A stretch of DNA of 21,513 nucleotides from a virus, in the IMG/VR virus record IMGVR_UViG_3300045999_001346, positions 1 through 21,513 of that record; one strand, written 5' to 3'. This document shows positions 3,406-21,303 of this stretch, piece by piece (position 1 is the stretch's first letter; the number at the start of each line of letters is the position of its first letter). Made by a program: the position numbers and the translations under genes. The notes below the pieces were generated by a model. That model made no database searches. It was not told the origin of the DNA and was given only the letters and a program-made list of their open reading frames with translations.

Positions 3406-5214
3406 ATGGTGACAAGACTTGAATCTGGTCGAATTCAGCTAAATGCACCGGGCGGCGTGCCGATGGAGCGCGTCGTTCCGCAGCAGGTTGATTACATGCC
3501 TGCCGCCAGAGAGCAGGCTAGAGGCGCTGGCGTGATGGCTGACATCATTGACCGCATGTCGGCGAGCATCTACGGCGCTGCAAAGGAAATGGCGGCGACA
3601 GAGGCTGTGCAATATGTCGCGACCAACCCACCAGATCGCACGCAGTTTTTGATTGCTGCTGGCTTTGATCCAGAGACAGGCACATTTCGCGGCGCTCCAC
3701 CGCCAAAGAAAGAGGGTGCGCAATATAACTGGACTGAGTTTGACAAGGTATATCAGAAAGCCAGAGATGCGCAGATTGCCAGCCTAATCAAGCAAGAAGG
3801 TTTGCACCAGATTGCAAACTTGATTACCAGGACTGACAAAGAAGGCGCTAATGCCTTAACGTCCAAAGACGTTGAAACGCAGATTGAAAACATGATCAAC
3901 GGCTTTGAGGCCGCCGCACGCAAAGAAAGCCCAGCTGCAGCGCTTGAGGTTCGGGCATCGTTGGCTGCGCATGGTTACACGGCCATTGAAAAGGTTAGAG
4001 GGCTGGAGGCAAAGGCTGCCAAAGAAAGGCAGTTGATTCGCCTTGATCAAGATTTTGAAGACAGGTTGAAAATATTAAAAGATTCGCTTGTGCAATTTCC
4101 AGACAATACCCAGCTATATGCTGATGTGTTTGCCAGAAATTTGATTGAGGAAGCAGTCAAAACAAATGATCGCGCCATTGTCGCTGACATGAGAAAGCGC
4201 GTTAATGAAGCGGTAACCAATGCAAAAATTGATGCAGTTTCAACCTACGTCACCAATACTGAATTTGCTGCAAATAACCTAGCGGCTGTTAGGCGGCTGG
4301 ATAGAGATGATGCTGGTCAGCTGTCGCCAATTTGGAACTCAATGAACTTTTCTGAAAAGGCAAAGGTTCGAGATGGCTTGCGCTCTGTATACGCAGACAA
4401 GGTGACGGCTGAAACACGGGCAAGAGATGAGGAACACAGAAGTAATTTATCTTTGGTCAATGAGATGACGCAAAGAATAATTGCTGCTGATGGTAATGAT
4501 CGGGAGGCCGAAGGTATTCTTTTGAGCATTTCCTACCGCGACCCGACAGCGATAAACCCGAAAGATATTGCGCTGATTAAAAAGCAGGCTGCCGATAAGC
4601 AAGAGCCGTCTTACGGCGTGCTTACGATGATGAAAGAAAACATATTCAATGACAAGTATTTAAACATTGAGCAGATGAAGGTTGCCGCAAGAAGAATGGG
4701 TGTGCCTGAGAAATTTATCTATTCTGATCTGCAGCCATTTTTCATTAGCAGGAAAGACAAAGAGCAAGGTCTGTTATATCAAGGTTTCAACAGAGCGGCC
4801 AACATGGACGCTGGTTCAAGAAATGAAAAGAACGTGCAACGCGCACGACAGTCTATTGAGCAGGAAGTTGATGAACGATTCCAAGAGCAAAACAGTTTCC
4901 CGCCAGAAAAGAGGCAGACTAAATCTGCAATCTTGAGGGATGTGCAAGAGGAGCGCAAAAAGTCGCAGGCCAATCAAATTATTGAAATGAAGCTAAAGTC
5001 GGTCAATGAGTCTTATGGCAAAAGCAGCTCGGACAAAAAGACAGGCATTGTGTTTGACATCAACACAAACATTGATGAGCTGGCTGACCAAGCGAGAAGA
5101 GGTAAAAATAAACTGAGCGACCTTGACATTGAATTGCTGCGCTCGGAATATGCAATTATTAAAAAGCAGTATCAAATTTTGAATCCTGTCAGATCGCAGC
5201 CGGGTGGAAGATGA
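3406..5214 (+). CDS. Probable internal virion / ejection protein, helical
   Basis: 602 residues with a weak ribosome site (AAGG at about 3395) ahead of ATG 3406. The sequence is dominated by charged and Ala-rich helix-forming segments (Lys, Glu, Asp, Gln, Arg), with no obvious signal peptide, membrane segment or enzyme motif. This fits a rod-like inner-core protein. Its place between the gp14-like protein and two more large proteins matches the T7 gp15 position (747 residues), so DNA ejection is the likely role; sequence alone does not prove it. The first 600 bases have the same base composition as upstream genes, while the remainder is visibly richer in A and T. The stop overlaps the next start as ATGA at 5211-5214, implying translational coupling. 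Confidence 0.5.
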   Translation: MVTRLESGRIQLNAPGGVPMERVVPQQVDYMPAAREQARGAGVMADIIDRMSASIYGAAKEMAATEAVQYVATNPPDRTQFLIAAGFDPETGTFRGAPPPKKEGAQYNWTEFDKVYQKARDAQIASLIKQEGLHQIANLITRTDKEGANALTSKDVETQIENMINGFEAAARKESPAAALEVRASLAAHGYTAIEKVRGLEAKAAKERQLIRLDQDFEDRLKILKDSLVQFPDNTQLYADVFARNLIEEAVKTNDRAIVADMRKRVNEAVTNAKIDAVSTYVTNTEFAANNLAAVRRLDRDDAGQLSPIWNSMNFSEKAKVRDGLRSVYADKVTAETRARDEEHRSNLSLVNEMTQRIIAADGNDREAEGILLSISYRDPTAINPKDIALIKKQAADKQEPSYGVLTMMKENIFNDKYLNIEQMKVAARRMGVPEKFIYSDLQPFFISRKDKEQGLLYQGFNRAANMDAGSRNEKNVQRARQSIEQEVDERFQEQNSFPPEKRQTKSAILRDVQEERKKSQANQIIEMKLKSVNESYGKSSSDKKTGIVFDINTNIDELADQARRGKNKLSDLDIELLRSEYAIIKKQYQILNPVRSQPGGR

Positions 5215-7010
5215 GCAAAGAATTTGACACGATGTACATTGACCACTTGGTTGATCGAGACTATCCACCGATGTCGATGGACGGTATGCAGTTGGCTGCT
5301 GCCGATACCGGTCGCCTGCCGGAGGTTGTGGTTACCGGTGAGCCAGAAAAGCCGACAGGTGCTGGTGGCCCAGCTGGTAAGCCTGAACCGCGCTTTGGTC
5401 GCGGTGGTGTTACCAGAGCTCAGTCTGAGGCTGCCGGTGGTCTTGAGGTTCCAGTGATGGGATTGGCAGACACGCTAGCTGGCGCACTGCGTGGCACGGT
5501 TGCGCAGTCGCTTGGCCTGCCTGGTGACATTGAAAGCCTGGTTCGCTTGTTGACCGGTGGCGAGCAAGTGCTGCCGACTACAGAACGGGTGAGCGAAATG
5601 CTGCCGCCTGTGGTGCCTGAAAATGCGCCAGATATGGTTGGCTATTCAGCAGAAGGCCGTCGCCAAACAGCTAATATTGCTGGCAAGCTGGGTGAATACA
5701 ACCCGATCTTGGGAGCACCAGAGGCTGTAAAGATTGGTGTCAAAGGTGCTAAAGCTGCAGGTGCTGCGCTGGCTCCGGCTGCTGCCAATGTGATTGAGAG
5801 CAACCTGCGCAAGGCTGGCATGATCATGGACATTGCGCCAAGCGGCCCAGGCCAGGTTGTCGTTCCGGTCAAGATTGGTGAGCGCGAAATAAAAATACCG
5901 GCTAAAGAAGCAGCATCGCTGCAGCGTGCGCTTAAAAATCTGACACCACAAGAGCAAGCAAAATTTAGGTCAGACACTGCGGTAAAGTTTGTCAATATCC
6001 TGAAAACCTTGCCAAGCAAAGAAGAGTTCGGCGCAGCTGCTGTGGCAGGCAAAGCTAAGAAGGGCTGGTACGAAGGAAGCACGCAAGCAATCATTCAGGT
6101 ATTTGGGCCAGACTCGCAGCGGTTTGCTGCGCTGCTGTCTGCCACCAGCCCACAGACCAGCGTCGAATCTAATTTGTTCAATGCGTTGCAAGTATGGAAA
6201 AACTGGACTGCAGCTGGTAGGCCTATAGACCGGGCATCAATTGTTCGCATAATGGGCGACAGCGTCCAGGGCAGCAAGGGCGAAGAGTCTGTATTGGATG
6301 CCTGGATCAATAACAGCGTTAAAGCGCTATCTGCAGAAGATCCGTCAACTGTTGTGCTGTCAGGCCCAAAGGTCAACAGCTTCATGTTGAATTTACAAGG
6401 CAATGTCAATGAGGTAACAAACGATGCTTGGATGGCAGCGTTTACTTATGTTGATCAGAATTTGTTTAGCGGTGGCCTGACTAAAGGCGGCGACCCCGGC
6501 AAAGGCCCAGGCTACATTGCCATGAATGCAAGGGTGCGCGAGACTGCTGATTACCTTACAAAATTTACTGGGGAGAAATGGACACCGGCAGAGGTTCAGG
6601 AGACAATCTGGTCATGGGCGAAAACCCTATACGAGACAGCCAGCGCCAAAGGTGAGACACGCTCGGCTGTTCAATTAATCCAGGACAATGCGATTACTGA
6701 TGAACTGATCGCTGCGACCCCTGACTTTAGGACATTATTCTATGATGAAAGATTCGGCCCAATCCTTGAGCAAGCCGGTTACTCAGAACAGCTTGCCCAG
6801 CTCAGAGCAGCTACTTCAGGATCTGATGTCGCAGCAGGAGCAAAAAAACCCGGAGCTAGCGGCCAAGCAGGCACGCTTGATCCAGAAGCTCAGAGAAAAT
6901 ACCTTGAGCGAAATGCCAAGCGCTTAGACAAACTACGCAAAGACAGAGAGAAAGAGGCTGCTGCCAAAGCCAAAGCAAAAGCCCAAATGAAAGCTGGAGG
7001 TGCTGAATAA
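5211..7010 (+). CDS. Large virion-associated protein with a DUF7178-like central domain
   Basis: 599 residues, starting at the ATGA overlap. Residues about 38-75 are a flexible Gly/Pro-rich linker. Residues about 180-200 are Ala-rich. Residues about 265-475 form a separate globular domain with 'GWY', 'LLSATSPQTSVESN' (near 306), 'GPKVNSFMLNLQG' (near 384), 'TNDAWMAAF' (near 403) and 'TPAEVQETIWSWAKTLYE' (near 457). I associate that pattern with a phage domain annotated as DUF7178. Residues 560-599 are a Lys/Ala/Glu-rich helix. The position among the ejection proteins suggests it is packaged in the virion, so the central domain may act in the infected cell at entry. No experimentally known function is recognised. 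The stop TAA overlaps the next start (TAATG). Confidence 0.5.
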   Translation: MSKEFDTMYIDHLVDRDYPPMSMDGMQLAAADTGRLPEVVVTGEPEKPTGAGGPAGKPEPRFGRGGVTRAQSEAAGGLEVPVMGLADTLAGALRGTVAQSLGLPGDIESLVRLLTGGEQVLPTTERVSEMLPPVVPENAPDMVGYSAEGRRQTANIAGKLGEYNPILGAPEAVKIGVKGAKAAGAALAPAAANVIESNLRKAGMIMDIAPSGPGQVVVPVKIGEREIKIPAKEAASLQRALKNLTPQEQAKFRSDTAVKFVNILKTLPSKEEFGAAAVAGKAKKGWYEGSTQAIIQVFGPDSQRFAALLSATSPQTSVESNLFNALQVWKNWTAAGRPIDRASIVRIMGDSVQGSKGEESVLDAWINNSVKALSAEDPSTVVLSGPKVNSFMLNLQGNVNEVTNDAWMAAFTYVDQNLFSGGLTKGGDPGKGPGYIAMNARVRETADYLTKFTGEKWTPAEVQETIWSWAKTLYETASAKGETRSAVQLIQDNAITDELIAATPDFRTLFYDERFGPILEQAGYSEQLAQLRAATSGSDVAAGAKKPGASGQAGTLDPEAQRKYLERNAKRLDKLRKDREKEAAAKAKAKAQMKAGGAE

Positions 7011-14602: not shown

Positions 14603-14805
14603 TTGCTACGGTCATGGCTGTGGTGCTGATGTTCTTTATCGTCATGCCTATCCTGGCTTTCATGTATTACGACATGTACTTTGCGACCCAGGCTGCGGTG
14701 CATGAAGTAAAGAAGATGAAACAATTAAGGCGTGAAATACTGGAAGAGCGGAGGCAAGGCAATGCTTACAGAGAGCCAACTGAAGCAACTGATCCCAGGG
14801 AATAA
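14461..14805 (+). CDS. Single-pass membrane protein, unknown function
   Basis: 114 residues from ATG 14461 with a weak AGGCGG site close upstream. The first 43 residues are hydrophilic (Lys, Ser, Gly, Asn). Residues about 44-68 ('VPWSLIATVMAVVLMFFIVM' and onward) form a strong membrane helix. The remaining part, 'AVHEVKKMKQLRREILEERR', is a charged amphipathic helix. I recall similar proteins carrying 'W.LIA.V..VVL.FFI.MPIL.FMY.DM' downstream of tail-anchored proteins in other phages. That resemblance supports translation of this frame despite its 142-base overlap with the preceding gene. The 3' end overlaps the endolysin start by 44 bases. A lysis-related role is suggested by neighbours only. 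Confidence 0.6.
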   Translation: MATKAGGKSAQKPSGMDWSSRVRNTVGSGSNVAGNQKRDNEDVPWSLIATVMAVVLMFFIVMPILAFMYYDMYFATQAAVHEVKKMKQLRREILEERRQGNAYREPTEATDPRE

Positions 14806-15385
14806 GTATGTGTCCTATTGGCACAACGCACTGGAGCAGCTGCTGCCGGACTATGACATCAATACGCCCAAGCGCATTGCATCCTTCATTGCTCAGTGCG
14901 CACATGAGTCTGGCAACTTCACAGCGCTGAAAGAGAATCTCAACTACAAGTGGGAAACCCTGCGCAGGTTGTTCCCTAAATACTTTCCCACCGATGAGAT
15001 GGCCAAGGACTACGCGAGCAGGCCGAACAAGCAGGCGGCAATCGCTAATCGGATCTACGCTGGCCGCATGGGTAACGGCGATGAGCAGTCATCTGATCCC
15101 GCAAAATGGATCGGTCGCGGATTGATCCAGCTGACCGGTCGCTCAAACTACCAGGCATTTGCTGACTCGGTCGAGATGGACATCAATGATGTGCCTGAGT
15201 ATCTTGCCACCTTCGAGGGCGCTGCACAGTCTGCTTGCTGGTTTTGGGAGACCAATGGTCTAAACAAATTCGCCGACGCTGATGACATCCTCGGTATGAC
15301 GAAGCGGATCAACGGCGGCACGATAGGATTGCAAGACCGGATCAAGCATTACAAACACGCGCTGCATGTCCTGGGGGTGAAATGA
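14762..15385 (+). CDS. Endolysin, glycoside hydrolase family 19 (chitinase-like)
   Basis: 207 residues. I chose ATG 14762, which has GGAGG at 14750-14754 with 7-base spacing, over an earlier in-frame ATG at 14732 that lacks a good site. The GH19 pattern is clear: 'IASFIAQCAHESGNFTALKE' with the probable catalytic Glu49 after His48 and the second acid Glu58, then 'NRIYAGRMGNG', then 'WIGRGLIQLTGRSNYQAF' (residues 117-133), and 'CWFWETNGLN'. Phage GH19 enzymes cleave the glycan backbone of peptidoglycan. There is no signal peptide or membrane anchor, so release into the periplasm should depend on a holin. The stop overlaps the following lipoprotein start (ATGA). Confidence in function is high; the bond cleaved is known only from the family. 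Confidence 0.9.
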   Translation: MLTESQLKQLIPGNKYVSYWHNALEQLLPDYDINTPKRIASFIAQCAHESGNFTALKENLNYKWETLRRLFPKYFPTDEMAKDYASRPNKQAAIANRIYAGRMGNGDEQSSDPAKWIGRGLIQLTGRSNYQAFADSVEMDINDVPEYLATFEGAAQSACWFWETNGLNKFADADDILGMTKRINGGTIGLQDRIKHYKHALHVLGVK

Positions 15386-15561
15386 GATACCTGCTGATCT
15401 TGCTGCTGCTGGCTGGGTGTGAGGATCGCTTTCGTTATCCATGTCAGGACAACAAGAACTGGAACAAGCCTGAGTGCCAGCGACCGACCTGCGCGGTGAC
15501 CGGCACTTGCCCCGACCAGCTGGTGCCAGCTGCTGACTTTAAGCCGGAGGAACAAAAATGA
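15382..15561 (+). CDS. Small Cys-rich lipoprotein (59 aa)
   Basis: ATG 15382 overlaps the endolysin stop as ATGA and opens a 59-residue frame ending at TGA 15559-15561. It begins MRYLLILLLLAGCED, a textbook signal peptide with lipobox LAGC, so Cys13 should be lipidated. The mature part contains four more cysteines (residues 21, 32, 37, 43) in a short Pro/Asn/Lys-rich chain, enough for two disulfides. The Asp immediately after position +1 is Glu-Asp, so outer-membrane sorting or inner-membrane retention cannot be settled by eye. It lies between endolysin and a holin-like gene with ATGA junctions on both sides, strongly suggesting translation. It could be an outer-membrane lysis factor or a superinfection factor; neither is shown. 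Confidence 0.7.
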   Translation: MRYLLILLLLAGCEDRFRYPCQDNKNWNKPECQRPTCAVTGTCPDQLVPAADFKPEEQK

Positions 15562-15989
15562 AATGGACTCCAGATCAAATTGATTCGATCATCAAACTAG
15601 TCATCGGCACGACCTTCTGTGCTGTGCTGCTGATGATGTCGAGCCTGGCGATGTACTCGGTCGTGTTCGTCACCCAGCCGATGAACTCTATCGCACCAGC
15701 TGACAAGCAATTCTTTATGTTGCTGTCGGACATGTCGAAGTACATCCTCGGTGCGTTGGCAACCCTGCTGGCCATCAAAGGCAAGGACGGCGTGGCCAAG
15801 CTGATCGACCCACCGCCTGGTGTTAGCAAGGCCAGCGATTGGACTGACCCGCAACCACCAGCACCCAAGGCTCCGGCACCAGTGCATCAGCGCGTCGAGC
15901 CTATGCTAGAGACTAGCCCACCACCACCTGTGGCGGCAGGCTTCAACGGTAAAGCAGCACCACCCGCAGCGCCGCAACCTGAACTATAG
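15558..15989 (+). CDS. Holin-like two-helix membrane protein
   Basis: 143 residues from ATG 15558, overlapping the lipoprotein stop (ATGA) with an excellent GGAGGAA site. Two hydrophobic segments are visible: residues about 12-38 ('LVIGTTFCAVLLMMSSLAMY' and onward) and about 60-75 ('YILGALATLLAIKG'). A proline-rich cytoplasmic-type tail of about 60 residues follows, with several PPP and AP repeats. Small two-helix proteins next to an endolysin are commonly holins, and I recall similar 'TTFC..V......Y..VFVTQP' proteins in other phages near lysis genes. The long Pro-rich tail is unusual for a classical class II holin. The call rests on topology and neighbourhood. Confidence 0.55.
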   Translation: MKWTPDQIDSIIKLVIGTTFCAVLLMMSSLAMYSVVFVTQPMNSIAPADKQFFMLLSDMSKYILGALATLLAIKGKDGVAKLIDPPPGVSKASDWTDPQPPAPKAPAPVHQRVEPMLETSPPPPVAAGFNGKAAPPAAPQPEL

Positions 15990-15997
15990 GGGGAACC

Positions 15998-16183
15998 ATG
16001 AACGCTTTTGTACTGATTCGCATGGCCGCAACCGTAGCAGCCAGCCTGCTGTTAGCATTCAACGTCCACGCTGGTGGCGAAATGAAGAAAGTTTGCCGGG
16101 AAGATCCGAAGACCAAGAAGGAAGTTTGCAAGACAATCAAGGTGCATAAGAAACTGGAAGGCACCAAGGTTCCACCGAAATGA
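15998..16183 (+). CDS. Small secreted basic protein, unknown
   Basis: 61 residues, ribosome site AGGGGG about 6 bases before ATG 15998. The N-terminus (residues 1-25) is a good signal peptide, 'VAASLLLAFNVHA' followed by GG, with cleavage likely after the A of VHA. The mature peptide of about 36 residues is Lys-rich and has two cysteines ('KKVCREDPKTKKEVCKTIKV') that could form a disulfide in the periplasm. Its stop overlaps the Rz-like start (ATGA at 16180). No family is recognised. It could be a periplasmic lysis accessory; I see no enzyme motif. Confidence 0.6.
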   Translation: MNAFVLIRMAATVAASLLLAFNVHAGGEMKKVCREDPKTKKEVCKTIKVHKKLEGTKVPPK

Positions 16184-16653
16184 ATCCCTATTTCATTGCC
16201 GCTGCCGTTATCGCTGTCGCAGTGGCTGGCGCTGGTGGCTATGTCAAAGGCTCGGCAGCAGGTAAGGCCGAGGTACAGGCGCAGTGGGATCAGGAGAAGG
16301 CCAGGTTGGCCGAAGAGTATGCGAAGGCGCAGGCAGCTGCACGCGAGAAGGAACAGCAGCTGCAGGCCCAGGCTGACCAGCTGAGAGAGGAGTCAAATGA
16401 ACGCATCAAAGATATTAGCGCTCGGTCTGACCGGCTTATTGACAGCCTGCGCAAGCGCCCCGAGCGCCCCGCCACCGCCCCGGCAGGTACCGTGTCCAGT
16501 ACCGCCAGCACTTGCAGTGGAGCGTCTGGAGCGGAACTGGATCGGAGAAATGGAGAGTTTCTTGCAAGGTACGCCACCGACGCAGCAAGGCTCCAATCAG
16601 CCCTCGACACCTGCATCCGTCAGTACGAAGCAGTGAGGAACACCCCCCGCTGA
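16180..16653 (+). CDS. Rz-like inner-membrane spanin
   Basis: 157 residues, starting at the ATGA overlap. Residues 3-22 (YFIAAAVIAVAVAGAGGY) form an N-terminal membrane anchor. Residues about 33-95 form a long periplasmic coiled coil rich in Ala, Glu, Gln and Lys. The C-terminal third contains Cys residues and 'LDTCIRQYEAVRN', as in many Rz proteins. A lipoprotein frame lies wholly inside it in the +1 frame, the classic Rz/Rz1 arrangement. Rz pairs with the outer-membrane lipoprotein Rz1 to fuse the two membranes in the last step of lysis. It is the last gene of the forward late block; its stop falls inside the first terminator hairpin. Confidence 0.85.
   Translation: MNPYFIAAAVIAVAVAGAGGYVKGSAAGKAEVQAQWDQEKARLAEEYAKAQAAAREKEQQLQAQADQLREESNERIKDISARSDRLIDSLRKRPERPATAPAGTVSSTASTCSGASGAELDRRNGEFLARYATDAARLQSALDTCIRQYEAVRNTPR
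16397..16636 (+). CDS. Rz1-like outer-membrane spanin lipoprotein, nested in Rz
   Basis: 79 residues in the +1 frame entirely within the Rz-like gene, with a strong AGAGGAG site just before ATG 16397. The N-terminus 'ILALGLTGLLTACAS' has a lipobox (LTAC), so Cys18 would be lipidated. The mature part is proline-rich ('SAPPPPRQVPCPVPPALAV'), as is typical of Rz1 proteins. Known Rz1 proteins sit in the outer membrane and bind Rz across the periplasm. The nested coding, the lipobox and the proline content together make this call strong. Confidence 0.85.
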   Translation: MNASKILALGLTGLLTACASAPSAPPPPRQVPCPVPPALAVERLERNWIGEMESFLQGTPPTQQGSNQPSTPASVSTKQ

Positions 16654-16720
16654 TACCGCGCCACTCCTGCGCCAACCAAGGTACCAGCGGGTTTTCCCGG
16701 CTATCAGTCGGGATTTTTTT
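16646..16720 (+). terminator. Tandem hairpin terminators at the end of the late operon
   Basis: Hairpin 1 pairs CCCGCTGATACC (16646-16657) with GGTACCAGCGGG (16680-16691), one mismatch, followed by TTTT. Hairpin 2 pairs TCCCGGCT (16695-16702) with AGTCGGGA (16706-16713) around a 3-base loop with one G-T pair, followed directly by seven T (16714-16720). Hairpin 2 is a good intrinsic terminator for forward transcription. Its sequence overlaps the 3' end of the opposing recT-like gene. No T-run follows either hairpin on the reverse strand, so termination of the opposing operon is not explained. Confidence 0.8.
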
Positions 16721-17735
16721 CCCTGTTCATTTCAGCGCCCAGCATTCGCAGTCGCTTCTGGTAAGCCTGCGAGTGCTGCAGCATCGCGCCAGGTTCCATC
16801 TGTTTGAACATCGCCTGGTTCGCTTCCTTAAAATTTTTTAACGCTGTCATCCTGTCACGCTCACTTGCCTTGCCTGCTGACATTGTCTTATCGGCCAGTT
16901 CTTCGTAGGCCGCAGACCAATCCAGCTGGGTGGCGTGGGTTGATTTGACCACCGGCCCGGCATCACCTTTGCCTGGCACCATAAGCTGGTAGATGCTTAT
17001 CACGCCAGGTTCTGCAGCAGGTTCTGCAGATTCTGCAGAATCATTCTGCAAATCAGAATTGGCTTCATCCAGATCCGGCACATACTCATCCACCGTGGTG
17101 GCGATGATTGCCTCCATCACTGCGGTTGGCTCGGGCGGCGCGATCCGATCCAGTGGATTAGCAGGCAGCGGAGTGATATTCTTGGCTGGCTGTGGCTTGG
17201 CCTCTGGCGGGAAATCCTGCGCCTCCTCCACCGTGATCAGCCCTTTGAGCGCGTCAGGAAACGCATCACGCAGCGCAAAGCCTCGAGCTCGCATCTGCAT
17301 CATGCGCTTTGGGTACGCCTGCCATGGCCCCTGCTTGCCCCACAGGCCAGCTCGCTTGGCATCCTCGACCGAGAACTTGGCCACCACCGGCTTGCGACCC
17401 TTGCGCTTGGCAACGCACACAGCGGTCGGGTTCGGCGTGCCTTCACCCTCGAAATACTCTTCGATGTCTTCGCAGTGTGGGCTGGCCTGCACCAGCGCCA
17501 TCGCTGCGTCACCGTAGACGCTGGGCTTCCCATTTATCACCGCGATATTTTGTAACGCCTGCATGGGTGCCAGGCCGATCTCTGCGCCCCATTGCATGGC
17601 CACCAGAATATCTTGCGGCTTGCCGGTGTAGGCTTTGGGTACTAGGCTGGACGATGCCAGCTCTTCGGCAAACTGCCTGGCTTCAGTAAAGGTTGCAGGC
17701 GCAAACCCTTGTCTAGTTGTAACGAGATTGGTCAT
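16704..17735 (-). CDS. recT: RecT-family single-strand annealing protein
   Basis: 343 residues on the reverse strand; AGGAGATAACA precedes the ATG at 17735. Residues about 12-175 show the RecT pattern: 'FAEELASSSLVPKAYTGKPQ', 'ILVAMQWGAEIGLAPMQALQNIAVINGKPSVYGDAA' and 'AKRKGRKPVVAKFSVEDAKRAGLW' with 'PKRMMQMRARGFALRDAFPDAL'. RecT-type proteins anneal complementary single strands after an exonuclease has resected the end. The C-terminal half is Pro/Ala/Glu-rich and then helical, longer than in minimal RecT (E. coli RecT is 269 residues); it could bind partner proteins such as host SSB. The YqaJ-type exonuclease lies upstream in the same operon, the usual partnership. It is the last gene of the reverse operon. 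Confidence 0.85.
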   Translation of the reverse strand: MTNLVTTRQGFAPATFTEARQFAEELASSSLVPKAYTGKPQDILVAMQWGAEIGLAPMQALQNIAVINGKPSVYGDAAMALVQASPHCEDIEEYFEGEGTPNPTAVCVAKRKGRKPVVAKFSVEDAKRAGLWGKQGPWQAYPKRMMQMRARGFALRDAFPDALKGLITVEEAQDFPPEAKPQPAKNITPLPANPLDRIAPPEPTAVMEAIIATTVDEYVPDLDEANSDLQNDSAESAEPAAEPGVISIYQLMVPGKGDAGPVVKSTHATQLDWSAAYEELADKTMSAGKASERDRMTALKNFKEANQAMFKQMEPGAMLQHSQAYQKRLRMLGAEMNREKNPD

Positions 17736-17886
17736 TGTTATCTCCTGGTAAGAATGCTTGGATTGTGTACAAAACTAGCGCGGTAAAGGACTCGACAATT
17801 TCCTCGGCCTCTTCCTCGCTGCACTTGGGTATGGTGTTCAACAGCGCGACAACAGCTCTGGCGTGCGCCTCTTCGAGTTTGGTCAT
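17713..17886 (-). CDS. Small acidic protein between exonuclease and recT (57 aa)
   Basis: On the reverse strand an ATG at 17886 overlaps the exonuclease stop (ATGA), with AGAGG 4-5 bases upstream. It opens a 57-residue frame ending at TAG 17713-17715, inside the start of the recT-like gene. The first residues are MTKLEEAHARAVVALLNTIP, then a Glu-rich 'CSEEEAEEIVESF' and a moderately hydrophobic 'TALVLYTIQAFL' near residues 35-46. No family is recognised. The double overlap with neighbours on both sides and the absence of any gap otherwise explained argue that it is translated. A role in exonuclease/annealase regulation is conceivable but not shown. Confidence 0.55.
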   Translation of the reverse strand: MTKLEEAHARAVVALLNTIPKCSEEEAEEIVESFTALVLYTIQAFLPGDNNDQSRYN

Positions 17887-18839
17887 AGTGCCTCTTTGAT
17901 GGACAGGGTTGATTGTCTGATGCTGTATGCGTCCTTCGCCGGCACCACCTTCTCTGGTGTCGCCTTGTAGCTACGCATTGGCCAGCGGATCTCGAAGCGT
18001 CCGACGGTGCCTTTGGATGCCTGACCCAGCATAGCTTTGAGCTCGGTCTCTGCTTCGGAGCGTTTGCCTTCTGCCTCTTTGATGGCTGCGTTAGCGGCTA
18101 GGATCTGGTCGGCCAGCTGTTCAGCGCGACCAGGCAGGTTGACTACCGCAGCCTCATCTGCTGCCGGGTACATACGGTCGGCATCTTTGCTGTTAGCTGG
18201 TGGGTAGTAATCGATCTCGCCGGTGGCTTTGTACTTCTCAATCTTGTTTTGAAACTCGAGCACCGCAGTCGTGATCGTTTCCAGTGTTTGCTTGTGCGGC
18301 TCGAACAAGAAGATCCGCAGCACGGTTCCCTGGTACAGCACGGCCACCGCACCCCATCGGGCCTGCATAATGTCCATCTGTGCCTGCAACTGCACAGGGC
18401 CACGGTACAGCGCTGGCATTTCCTCGGGCGACACAGCGGTTAGCTTGGCCTCAAGCACGCCATAGCCGTCAAGCATGATCTCATCCTGGCCGACCACGAT
18501 AATGCCTGCGTCCATGTCGGTGCGGATCTTCTGGCCACGGCCATGCGCCCAACCGTCCAGGCTGCAGGCCAGCGGTAGTGTCTTATGGAAGAAGGCCGAG
18601 TCAAACTCGGTCGAGAGCTCGAGCAGCTCGAGGCGCTTGGCTGTTTCTTGCAGGATCAGGCGCTCGATGCGGTCGCCCCATGCCATCGCTTCGTTCTGTT
18701 TGTCTTCGCGTGGCAGGCCTTTGCTGGCATTGATGCTGTACTGGAGCTCATCATTGGGTGTCTGGTAACGAGACAGCCCGAGCAGCGCTGGCAGGCGGCT
18801 GGCGCTCATCATGTAGTCTGGTGTTAATTTTCCGCTCAT
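17883..18839 (-). CDS. YqaJ-type phage recombination exonuclease
   Basis: 318 residues; GGGAG lies 8 bases before ATG 18839, and the start overlaps the upstream stop as ATGA. The N-terminal domain has the YqaJ/lambda-exonuclease-like PD-(D/E)XK pattern: 'SASRLPALLGLSRYQTPNDEL' (13-32), 'MAWGDRIERLI' with Glu59 (52-62), 'LACSLDGWA' with Asp95, 'GVLEAKLTA' with Glu130 and Lys132, and 'GPVQLQAQMDIMQ' (148-159). Such enzymes resect one strand of double-stranded DNA ends to make tails for annealing. Residues about 230-270 form a helical linker, and the end 'RFEIRWPMRSYKA..EKVVPAKDAYSIRQ' is a pattern I also recall in phage YqaJ proteins. RecT is encoded immediately downstream after a 57-codon gene. 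Confidence 0.85.
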   Translation of the reverse strand: MSGKLTPDYMMSASRLPALLGLSRYQTPNDELQYSINASKGLPREDKQNEAMAWGDRIERLILQETAKRLELLELSTEFDSAFFHKTLPLACSLDGWAHGRGQKIRTDMDAGIIVVGQDEIMLDGYGVLEAKLTAVSPEEMPALYRGPVQLQAQMDIMQARWGAVAVLYQGTVLRIFLFEPHKQTLETITTAVLEFQNKIEKYKATGEIDYYPPANSKDADRMYPAADEAAVVNLPGRAEQLADQILAANAAIKEAEGKRSEAETELKAMLGQASKGTVGRFEIRWPMRSYKATPEKVVPAKDAYSIRQSTLSIKEAL

Positions 18840-19309
18840 TTGTTAATCTCCCTTATTTGTTTTTCAATAGCGCGTGCAAATTCCATTTGCTTCTCATCAC
18901 TGCAATAGTTTTGCAAAGTAATTTTTGAGTTCCTTATTACCTCTTGAATTTGCTCATCCGATATTTTTTTCCATCTTAGATTTTGTTTTGCCTCTTTAAA
19001 TTCATCCTCGGTAATAAATTCTATTTCGTCAAATTTGGCCAATGTCTCCTCAAGTTGTCTTTTTAGTTCCATGAATTGTGGTTTTTGCTCTTCGTGAATT
19101 GCATGGCGACCAGGCAAATGCAGCCAATGATCGTCAAACATGACGTTAAAAATGCTCTCAATTGTAAAAAACAGCCCTAGCTCTTCAAAGTTTTTTGATG
19201 TATGCCAATCATATGGAACCTCATCATCCTCATTGTTTACATACAAAAACAATTCGAGCTTGTTTTCGTTGTACCTAAAATGAACTAACGAATCTTTTAT
19301 TTCTTTCAT
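18836..19309 (-). CDS. AT-rich acidic protein of unknown function in the recombination operon
   Basis: 157 residues; AGGAG lies 8 bases before ATG 19309. No family is recognised. The chain is acidic, with clusters such as 'NNEDDEVPYDW' (near 25-35) and 'KFDEIEFITEDEFKEAKQ' (near 92-109), and is likely helical in its second half. Aromatic and hydrophobic residues are frequent ('ELGLFFTIESIFNVMFDDHW' near 43-62). Base composition is strikingly different from its neighbours: two 60-base lines counted here (18901 and 18961) have 20 and 15 G+C, against 38 for the line at 18541 in the exonuclease gene. It ends in an ATGA overlap with the exonuclease start. It could be a recently acquired accessory or host-takeover protein; no function is assigned. 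Confidence 0.65.
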   Translation of the reverse strand: MKEIKDSLVHFRYNENKLELFLYVNNEDDEVPYDWHTSKNFEELGLFFTIESIFNVMFDDHWLHLPGRHAIHEEQKPQFMELKRQLEETLAKFDEIEFITEDEFKEAKQNLRWKKISDEQIQEVIRNSKITLQNYCSDEKQMEFARAIEKQIREINK

Positions 19310-19311
19310 TC

Positions 19312-19602
19312 TTATTTCTCCTGAGTCAATTTATAAACACGCACCACGCGAGCGTGGGCGGCTTTGTGAGCGGCTTCTGTGTAGCCGATTGCTATGAATT
19401 TTTTACCCCGGAAAACGGCACCCAGGACTGATGGGTGCAGCTCCGCAGGCAGGTCAATGGCGGCTCGGACATCGTTGATAGACACCGAGCCCTGCTGCCT
19501 GCAGATTTGCGTTGCGATTTCCCGGCACTGAGCCAGGAAGTCTGCGTCGCGTTGCTCAAACAGTGCCAGCTGGGCATCGCGCAGGATCTGGCCGGTGATC
19601 AT
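19312..19602 (-). CDS. Small protein, possible winged-helix fold
   Basis: 96 residues read from ATG 19602, which overlaps the stop of the 26-residue peptide gene (ATGA) and has GGCGGG upstream. An upstream in-frame ATG at 19734 would run through the serine recombinase gene and is rejected. The middle 'FLAQCREIATQICRQQGSVSINDVRAAIDLPAELHPSVLGAVFRGKKFIAIGYTEAA' (residues about 22-80; shown here only in part by key turns) has helix-turn-helix-strand spacing. I recall short phage proteins with similar 'G..S.NDVR......HP..LGAVFR.K.FIAIGY', without a proved role. DNA binding is a reasonable guess only. Two bases separate its stop from the next start. Confidence 0.6.
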   Translation of the reverse strand: MITGQILRDAQLALFEQRDADFLAQCREIATQICRQQGSVSINDVRAAIDLPAELHPSVLGAVFRGKKFIAIGYTEAAHKAAHARVVRVYKLTQEK

Positions 19603-19679
19603 ATGACACCCGCCACAAAAAACATGGCCATCACGATAAAGATCCCGAGCAGGAAGCCGTTGAAGAAATCGTCGTTCAT
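19599..19679 (-). CDS. 26-residue single-helix membrane peptide
   Basis: On the reverse strand an ATG at 19679 overlaps the serine recombinase stop (ATGA), and its own stop TGA overlaps the next start (ATGA), so it exactly fills the space between two genes. It starts MNDDFFNGF; the remaining 17 residues are almost all hydrophobic (Leu, Ile, Phe, Val, Met, Ala, Gly), forming one membrane helix. AGCGGGG precedes the ATG. It encodes no motif beyond the helix. The double coupling makes it very likely to be translated; the function is unknown. Confidence 0.6.
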   Translation of the reverse strand: MNDDFFNGFLLGIFIVMAMFFVAGVI

Positions 19680-20323
19680 GCTGCACCCCGCTGAAGAAGG
19701 TTAGAGACTTGGGCAGCGCCCCAGGTACGGCCACCGCGAGCGGTCTGCACGCCGCGAGCTGTCAGTGCTGCTGCGATTGAGCGCAGGCTGGTGATGCCTG
19801 CACGCTGCAGGTCGGCGATGATGGGCATCATGCGAGCTGCGAATGCGTCAGCATTGGCACGGCCAGCGGCTGCACCGGATTCTGCTGCTGCCTGTGGGTT
19901 TGGGTTACCGAGTTTGACACCGCGAGCCTTGGCTGCCTGCAGTGCTGCCTTGGTACGGCGGCTGATTTCTTCGCGCTCATGCTGGGCGACCACAGCGCGG
20001 ATACCGAACTCAAGCGTACCAGCGTGCGGCATGTCGGCTGCAACGATCTGCACGCCAGAGTCACGCAAGGTCAGCAGGAACGCTGCCTGGCGTGACAGTC
20101 GGTCGATCTTGGCAATCAGCAGAGCTGCGCCAGTGGCTTTGCACATGGCGATGGCAGCGGCCAGCTGTGGCCGGTCATCGTGCTTGCCTGATTCGATCTC
20201 GGTGAATGAATGAATGATGCCGTCGGCGTAGGCTTTGACTGCTGCCTGCTGGGCTTCGAGGCCGAGGCCAGATTGGCCCTGGCGCTCAGTGGAAACTCGG
20301 AAGTAGGCGACGTAGGAGGTCAT
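19676..20323 (-). CDS. Serine site-specific recombinase (resolvase/invertase family)
   Basis: 215 residues; GGAGG lies 7 bases before ATG 20323. The N-terminal catalytic domain is clear: 'YFRVSTERQ' with Arg9 and nucleophile Ser11, 'GLGLEAQQ', 'FTEIESGKHDDRPQL', and 'LLIAKIDRLSRQ' with Asp74, Arg75 and Arg78. The E-helix region follows ('AVVAQHEREEISRRTKAAL', near 112-130), then a short C-terminal part with a helix-turn-helix-like 'GITSLRSIAAALTARGVQTARGGRTW'. The length fits small resolvases and invertases (about 180-220 residues), not large serine integrases. Activity could be DNA inversion, dimer resolution or integration; the target site is not identified. It sits early in the operon with recombination genes. 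Confidence 0.85.
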   Translation of the reverse strand: MTSYVAYFRVSTERQGQSGLGLEAQQAAVKAYADGIIHSFTEIESGKHDDRPQLAAAIAMCKATGAALLIAKIDRLSRQAAFLLTLRDSGVQIVAADMPHAGTLEFGIRAVVAQHEREEISRRTKAALQAAKARGVKLGNPNPQAAAESGAAAGRANADAFAARMMPIIADLQRAGITSLRSIAAALTARGVQTARGGRTWGAAQVSNLLQRGAA

Positions 20324-20325
20324 GA

Positions 20326-20592
20326 TTATGCCTCCGCTTTAGAGATCAAGCCGTAGCTGACCAAAGTTTCGAGCAGCGAATTGGCGCGAACGCGCTCTGA
20401 ACCGTTATAAGTGCGGGCAATGCACAATTTGCATTGTGCGACTACTGCCTGCAGATAATCGCCTGGGGTGCCACGGCGAAACGCTTGGGCTGCGCGGCAA
20501 GCAAAGTCTTGATTGCCTGGTACGGAAAGCACCTCGGTGATGGTGCCTGCTAGAACGATCCAGTTTTCTTGATTGATTGTGCGAGTACTCAT
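20326..20592 (-). CDS. First gene of the reverse operon, unknown function
   Basis: 88 residues from ATG 20592, chosen because AGGAG lies 8 bases upstream; a longer frame reaching back to 20859 would cross the control region and the opposite-strand RHH gene. The protein is soluble with no signal peptide. It has a beta-like start ('NWIVLAGTITEVLSVPG'), a middle 'CRAAQAFRRGTPGDYLQAVVAQCKLC' and a helical end ('ANSLLETLVSYGLISKAEA'). Three cysteines are present, but no zinc-site spacing is convincing. No family is recognised. It is two bases from the serine recombinase start and is the first gene after the divergent promoter region, a typical place for an early regulator. Confidence 0.6.
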   Translation of the reverse strand: MSTRTINQENWIVLAGTITEVLSVPGNQDFACRAAQAFRRGTPGDYLQAVVAQCKLCIARTYNGSERVRANSLLETLVSYGLISKAEA

Positions 20593-20615
20593 GTTTTGCG
20601 CTCCTGTATCTCGGT

Positions 20616-20630
20616 GGCGTTGCGGTCTTG
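20616..20630 (+). repeat. 15-bp direct repeat, copy 1 (control region)
   Basis: GGCGTTGCGGTCTTG recurs at 20726-20740 as GGCGTTACGGTCTTG, one difference, same orientation, 110 bases apart. This copy lies in the untranslated leader of the reverse operon. It may be a regulator or recombinase binding site. Confidence 0.5.
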
Positions 20631-20652
20631 AGTGACCGTAGACAGAGACTCT

Positions 20653-20671
20653 CATATATCGGCGAGATATG
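20653..20671 (+). promoter_or_regulatory. 19-bp near-palindrome, candidate operator
   Basis: CATATATCGGCGAGATATG is a palindrome apart from one mismatched pair, centred at 20662. It lies between the two divergent transcription units. A TTGACA -35-like hexamer for the reverse strand (20675-20670) touches its edge. Sequences similar to its half-sites occur at 20605-20617 (TATCTCGG) and 20748-20762 (CGGGCGATATAC). A ribbon-helix-helix repressor is encoded 100 bases away and is a natural candidate ligand; the serine recombinase is another. Confidence 0.5.
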
Positions 20672-20720
20672 TCAACACCCCAAACCAAAATAATTTTAGG
20701 TGCTGTCAAATTGGCAAGCG

Positions 20721-20749
20721 TTGACGGCGTTACGGTCTTGGAATTATAT
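20721..20749 (+). promoter_or_regulatory. Sigma70-like promoter for the RHH/nuclease operon
   Basis: TTGACG (20721-20726) and TTATAT (20744-20749) are separated by exactly 17 bases, a near-consensus pair. Transcription would begin at about 20756, some 18 bases before ATG 20774, giving a short leader that holds the GGGGG ribosome site. Copy 2 of the 15-bp repeat (20726-20740) occupies the spacer, and a half-site like that of the nearby palindrome follows the -10 box, so repression by occlusion is plausible. Confidence 0.65.
20726..20740 (+). repeat. 15-bp direct repeat, copy 2 (inside promoter spacer)
   Basis: GGCGTTACGGTCTTG differs at one base from the copy at 20616-20630. It lies entirely between the -35 and -10 boxes of the forward promoter, so a protein bound here would interfere with RNA polymerase. 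Confidence 0.5.
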
Positions 20750-20773
20750 TCGGGCGATATACAAGGGGGTGTT

Positions 20774-20956
20774 ATGAAGCAAGGCAAGATGTTTTTAATG
20801 CGTATGCGGCCAGAGGTAAGGCAGCTGCTAGACCAGGCGGCTGCAGAACAGCGTCGCACCAGGGTGTCGATCCTGGAAGAGCTGATACTGGAAGCCTACG
20901 GCAAGCGCTACCAGAGCACGCAGGATCGGCTGAACAAGCTGCTAGGTGGCGCATGA
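20774..20956 (+). CDS. Arc/MetJ-type ribbon-helix-helix DNA-binding protein
   Basis: 60 residues from ATG 20774, preceded by AAGGGGG with suitable spacing and by a good promoter. A longer frame from 20669 would start before the promoter and is not favoured. A short strand ('KMFLMRM', residues 5-11) leads to helix A ('PEVRQLLDQAAAEQR', 13-27), a turn ('RTR') and helix B ('VSILEELILEAYGKRY', 31-46), the ribbon-helix-helix arrangement. Such proteins bind DNA as dimers through the strand. The gene is next to a region with a near-palindrome and repeats, so it probably regulates its own operon and perhaps the divergent one. Its stop overlaps the next start (ATGA). Confidence 0.75.
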   Translation: MKQGKMFLMRMRPEVRQLLDQAAAEQRRTRVSILEELILEAYGKRYQSTQDRLNKLLGGA

Positions 20957-21303
20957 ACGGTCGCGGCAAGCGGAACAAGGGTGCTGCAGGCGAGCGTGAG
21001 CTGGCCAAGCTGTTGACTGACGAGCTCGGGTTCGTGGTCAAGCGCAACCTGGGGCAGGCCAGAGATGGTGCGGATGACATCACGATCCAGCACTTCAGGC
21101 TAGAGGTAAAGCGGCAGGAACGGTTGCAGATTGATGCCTGGTCGCAACAGGTCGAGGCTTGTGCGCAGCCGCATGAGGTGCCGGTGGTAGTCTACCGGCG
21201 CAACGGCCAGCCCTGGCGTGTCTGTCTTTTATTGGATGACTTTATACCTATGCTGAGAGATCAATTGGAGGGAAACAATGCAAACGAAACTGAAGCTAGC
21301 TGA
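20953..21303 (+). CDS. Small PD-(D/E)XK nuclease, Holliday-junction-resolvase-like
   Basis: 116 residues, starting at the ATGA overlap with the RHH gene. The pattern fits a compact PD-(D/E)XK nuclease: 'KGAAGERELAKLL' with Glu14, 'GFVVKRNLGQARDGADDI' with Asp41/Asp42, 'FRLEVKRQE' with Glu51 and Lys53, then 'AWSQQVEACAQPHEVPVVVYRRNG' giving the final strand. Similar short proteins occur in phages and in archaeal Hjc-type resolvases, which cleave branched DNA. Its role in resolving recombination or replication intermediates would complement the RecT and exonuclease of the opposing operon; that connection is inferred. The next gene starts within its last 26 bases. Confidence 0.7.
   Translation: MNGRGKRNKGAAGERELAKLLTDELGFVVKRNLGQARDGADDITIQHFRLEVKRQERLQIDAWSQQVEACAQPHEVPVVVYRRNGQPWRVCLLLDDFIPMLRDQLEGNNANETEAS

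Follow-up and report, generated by a model that had tools for sequence, protein, structure and literature searches.

The window, by which we mean the whole 21,513-nucleotide stretch of viral DNA analysed here (IMG/VR record IMGVR_UViG_3300045999_001346), carries a recombination operon on its minus strand. The gene order is: a serine recombinase of the resolvase/invertase type (215 aa, 19676..20323; PF00239, 8e-26; phrog_125 DNA invertase, 3e-31) – a 26-residue membrane-type micropeptide (19599..19679) – a 96-aa protein termed d96 (19312..19602; phrog_27658, 7e-6) – a 157-aa protein without a Pfam match (18836..19309) – a YqaJ/RecE-like exonuclease (17883..18839; PF09588; phrog_434, 9e-37) – a RecT-like annealing protein (16704..17735; PF03837; phrog_561, 1e-52). 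Divergent from this operon, the plus-strand segment 20777-21303 encodes a small protein with a weak antitoxin-like match (TacA1, E 0.03) and a phage endonuclease of the PDDEXK_15 type (PF24608, 5e-11). The lysis genes are also on the plus strand, in a block at 14732-16653 with a GH19 endolysin (PF00182), a candidate two-span holin and an Rz-like spanin that has an embedded Rz1-like ORF (16397-16636). As for d96, the mechanically listed ORF in its frame has 140 aa and starts at a GTG inside the recombinase gene, while conservation begins at the d96 ATG. An AlphaFold2 model of this protein (nine sequences; pLDDT 88, pTM 0.77) has a winged-helix-like order of elements, and its Foldseek matches, though weak (best E 0.098), are mostly winged-helix nucleic-acid-binding proteins; from this predicted fold d96 is a possible DNA binder.

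Read on the minus strand, 19599-19679 translates to MNDDFFNGFLLGIFIVMAMFFVAGVI followed by a stop. The recombinase ORF ends in GCAGCATGA (...GCA GCA TGA) and the micropeptide ATG shares that ATGA (19676..19679); at the other end the micropeptide closes with ATA TGA (ATATGA), and the ATG of d96 sits inside this final ATGA (19599..19602). The preliminary description of this DNA had given the same coordinates and the same two junctions, and the window sequence bears them out. It had also predicted that gene callers with a length cutoff would miss the gene, and at 81 nt the ORF is indeed shorter than the usual minimum, which is 90 nt by default in Prodigal. The double ATGA is by itself not rare: of the 194 ATGA starts in the window, 9 belong to ORFs of 20-60 codons that close with ATGA as well. 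Two other readings of the same letters were set aside. A recombinase-helix fusion made by a -1 frameshift finds no slippery site in GCAGCATGA, and the micropeptide frame has its own conserved ATG; for an antisense 89-aa ORF (19435-19704, plus strand), the selection signal matches the minus-strand frame instead. Nor did a search for an RNA element at the junction give any Rfam match across 19000-21000.

The evidence that this short frame is a gene comes from its relatives. A fixed-length pattern scan of the IMG/VR viral collection located the micropeptide at the same place in 72 contigs, as 22 different peptides; all 72 have d96 downstream and 71 have the recombinase upstream, the remaining contig ending at that point. 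This set preserves the length, the frame, both ATGA junctions and the hydrophobicity, and none of the 22 peptides has an internal stop; the scan pattern itself fixes the length and the end, but a comparison of the relatives' junctions made without the pattern gave the same result. IMG/VR holds many such relatives, all from a group of phages that are uncultured, and where the recombinase and d96 are both close kin of those in the window, the 26-residue peptide is present with both ATGA overlaps. L028, which has other genes at that place, is the one exception among the close recombinases. When changes in 45 distinct junctions were counted by parsimony on the tree of the flanking genes, substitutions at codon positions 1, 2 and 3 numbered 65, 25 and 143 (p = 5e-19, in a test that treats the changes as independent). 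The pooled pairwise dN/dS is about 0.27 in the micropeptide frame, against 1.08 and 1.92 in the other two sense frames. It had been proposed that this is a real coding gene, that dN/dS across related junctions should be below 1, and that frameshifts or stops in relatives would speak against it; the synonymous excess is found in the micropeptide frame alone, its ratio is clearly below 1, and the 42 distinct alleles have no internal stop, so that the proposal stands.

The product is also exceptional in its composition. The window has 97 ATG ORFs of 20-45 aa, and apart from the micropeptide, which scores 2.69, none has a 19-residue Kyte-Doolittle mean higher than 2.0; a hydropathy mean of 2.6 is attained by just 0.2% of the stop-free 26-codon stretches, whatever their frame. 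Each of the 22 peptides has a 19-residue window with a mean hydropathy of at least 2.2, in spite of wide variation at residues 9-23. A single-span membrane peptide is expected to keep one hydrophobic stretch of some 19 residues or more as its sequence changes, and the micropeptide appears to be such a peptide. The original picture of a membrane-type peptide locked between its neighbours is thus upheld in the relatives, with both the hydrophobic stretch and the overlaps kept, and we consider it near certain that the gene is real and its product of the membrane type. Only the polar start needs revision: nine residues had been suggested, but it extends for about four (MNDD, then FF). The architecture is an acidic N-terminal stub (M-N/S-D-D-F) followed by one C-terminal hydrophobic helix.

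An alignment of 20 of the peptides has M1, D3, D4, F5, G8, [G/A]12, G24 and I26 fixed; position 2 is N or S, position 6 F or L and position 25 V or I, while positions 9-23 are variable and mostly apolar throughout. Codon 8 has undergone 14 third-position changes with no replacement, and codon 12 only a G/A exchange. A G-xxx-G/A pattern is the usual packing signature of membrane helices, and G8 with [G/A]12 may well form such a helix-packing face. Codons 2-4 and 24-26 show few changes at the third position, which points to a nucleotide constraint near both overlaps; G24 and I26 may therefore not be constraints on the peptide, since G24 and the ATA-TGA end lie within the d96 start region and could be conserved at the nucleotide level. 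This scarcity of third-position changes, together with the invariance of both ATGA overlaps, is what one would expect if the ORF were chiefly a translational relay that couples recombinase and d96 translation, with the hydrophobic peptide as a mere by-product. However, the residues of a relay would be free to change, whereas dN/dS is low in this frame, D3, D4, F5 and G8 are invariant although the third positions vary freely from codon 5 onwards, and all the other proteins found at this position in related phages (see below) are single spans too. We therefore regard such a relay as very unlikely.

By profile searches, the micropeptide family is new to Pfam and PHROGs: the matches were all insignificant (DUF3042, E 0.08; phrog_34717, E 0.63). 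At the sensitivity used, INPHARED phages had no match to the micropeptide, to d96 or to a class C protein (one of the classes introduced below). The nearest isolate by YqaJ is Methylophilales phage MEP301 (MW452941), whose YqaJ is 39% identical. In this phage, too, the YqaJ exonuclease comes after a serine recombinase, but there the two genes are separated by just a 3-base gap, with neither d96 nor a small single-span ORF between. In a broader sense the micropeptide is of the same kind as the phage small-gene families that have been predicted (Fremin, Bhatt, Kyrpides 2022, cited in PMC11323111) and those of the MetaRibo-Seq work (PMC7324362), which are likewise unannotated short coding genes found by a comparative signal. 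Next to these families, the invariant double ATGA and the always-filled position appear specific to the present case.

The preliminary description had called a membrane peptide in a recombination operon unexpected. This part of it does not hold for the related phages: every related locus that we examined has a small single-span protein at that place, usually a different one. Deeper sampling of d96 relatives gave 141 loci with a distinct sequence and both flanks present, and the slot between recombinase and d96 is filled by such a protein in 141 of 141, related loci not being independent events. As controls, the antisense of the same intervals scored in 9 of 141 cases and equal-length downstream sense stretches in 12 of 690 (1.7%). 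At least seven sequence classes occupy the slot. Besides class A, which is the 26-residue form, they include a 25-aa class (MRNQLYDIVIYWLGLVAVLVVWLTC), an ETLxEKI-like class of 27-66 aa, EKLIDxAYVV (29-30 aa), MKQTYFTQQN (44 aa) and TGKVxIG/KVPIG (64-76 aa); a YxGY class and some singletons are further occupants. The MRNQLYDIVIYWLGLVAVLVVWLTC micropeptide, listed with a TTG start, lies directly between recombinase and d96 in L333, L334 and L336-L342. Most classes carry the helix at their very C-terminus, and AlphaFold2 of class C is confident for the C-terminal helix only (block means 94 and 97, pTM 0.35). For classes A, B, C, D and E, the slot ORF ends right next to the d96 start or overlaps it, the two ATGA overlaps described above being kept in every class A junction; elsewhere a further soluble gene intervenes. 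One soluble family of 60-74 aa (LLQGxxYTxAAxTDVxxTWRKxGW) was seen between the small membrane ORF and d96 in L262, L246, L251, L268 and others. Genome contigs contributed a single relative, L215, a Burkholderiales MAG fragment that encodes a protein of class C.

We also considered class A as a member of the tail-anchored class C/E proteins (TGKVxIG...LQxALL...helix). They share the position, but kinship between the helices was undetected by column shuffling (A/E, p = 0.09-0.42; A/C, p = 0.28), a comparison of weak power with helices this short, and the assignment was dropped. Since the slot is always filled, it probably serves a real job at the host membrane. A bolder reading, to which we give well short of even confidence, is that the slot is mandatory: the group would need a single-span peptide whose translation is coupled between those of a serine recombinase and a winged-helix protein, a need filled repeatedly by unrelated peptides (down to 25-26 residues), each matched to its own d96 or to a host target.

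The slot tends to travel with d96. Its class label requires 10 changes on the d96 tree (the minimum is 8), as against 15 on the recombinase tree, and in L028 and L201 a class A-type recombinase stands beside a slot and a d96 that are both of class D. L028 itself is a mosaic at 4001-5743, with a recombinase 97% identical to that of the window and a break near the recombinase end. The closer agreement of slot class with d96 than with the recombinase is also what one would expect if the partner were d96 and not a host protein. One form of this would be a membrane tether, in which the micropeptide binds d96 or another operon product and so brings phage DNA processing to the membrane; the joint movement of slot and d96 in L028/L201 and the predicted winged-helix fold of d96 are in line with this. 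On the other hand, adjacency alone could account for the linked inheritance, the 26-aa form has hardly any polar part (some 4-5 residues) that could grip a soluble partner, and the polar parts differ among the classes, yet their d96 proteins are 51-80% identical to that of the window (members aligned). On balance, we consider a tether unlikely.

The role that we find most likely among several, though at a little short of even confidence, is that the micropeptide would be an early effector that acts on a host inner-membrane protein by helix packing. Ribosomes that finish the recombinase would re-initiate on the shared ATGA, as the gene order suggests, and make the micropeptide, whose synthesis would thereby stay coordinated with that of the recombinase and of d96. 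Once inserted by its single span in the host inner membrane, the peptide would use its conserved small-residue face, G8-xxx-[G/A]12, to bind a membrane partner. The likeliest partner is perhaps a host inner-membrane protein whose activity the phage must alter early, the timing again being suggested by the gene order. There are bacterial counterparts in build: KdpF, CydX, MgrB and AcrZ are single-span regulators of about 26-50 residues, each with one helix that packs against a larger membrane protein. The likeness drawn here is one of size and single helix, and these regulators are host-coded with known partners, whereas the micropeptide is phage-coded. It would represent the 26-residue version of the "small anchored membrane protein" position that is filled by other sequences in other phages, and the turnover of sequence with a kept architecture would fit targets that are specific to the host or to the partner.

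Membrane character with sequence turnover between phages could also be a property of an inner-membrane peptide that excludes superinfecting phages or blocks their entry. As a rule, genes for exclusion are optional and scattered, unlike the slot, which was filled in all 141 loci. Phage proteins that block DNA injection do exist, such as HK97 gp15 and P22 SieA (PMC10883804); both are phage-coded and act on incoming DNA (SieA in the inner membrane), which makes them candidate likenesses of the micropeptide. SieA differs in anatomy and is much larger, however, with 162-164 aa and three predicted spans in place of one (PMC10883804), and exclusion seems to us quite unlikely as the function here.

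Decidedly unlikely, in our opinion, is a membrane-depolarising role as a small hydrophobic toxin or as a lysis accessory (type I toxin-like or pinholin-like). The size and composition do recall known short hydrophobic toxins, among which are IbsC, TisB and DinQ, but class A has no basic residue and no known antitoxin RNA family lies nearby (Rfam, 19000-21000). Holins and pinholins are looked for among the lysis genes, and the micropeptide is on the strand opposite the block with the GH19 endolysin, the Rz-like spanin and the two-span protein; with its own endolysin, spanin and candidate holin there, the phage has no need of a lysis role for the micropeptide.

The wider interest is twofold. The micropeptide is a clear example of a phage gene that is functional and yet falls under the gene-caller cut-offs. 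Short unannotated phage genes are known already; what is distinctive here is that different single-span proteins have come to occupy the same operon position again and again, and that a single place in a recombination operon is always held by a small anchored membrane protein even though no resemblance between the sequences can be recognised. Should the slot be required, phage recombination or takeover would be linked to the host inner membrane, and the occupants, from 25 to about 75 residues, would constitute a natural variant series with which to probe the capabilities of a minimal membrane peptide.
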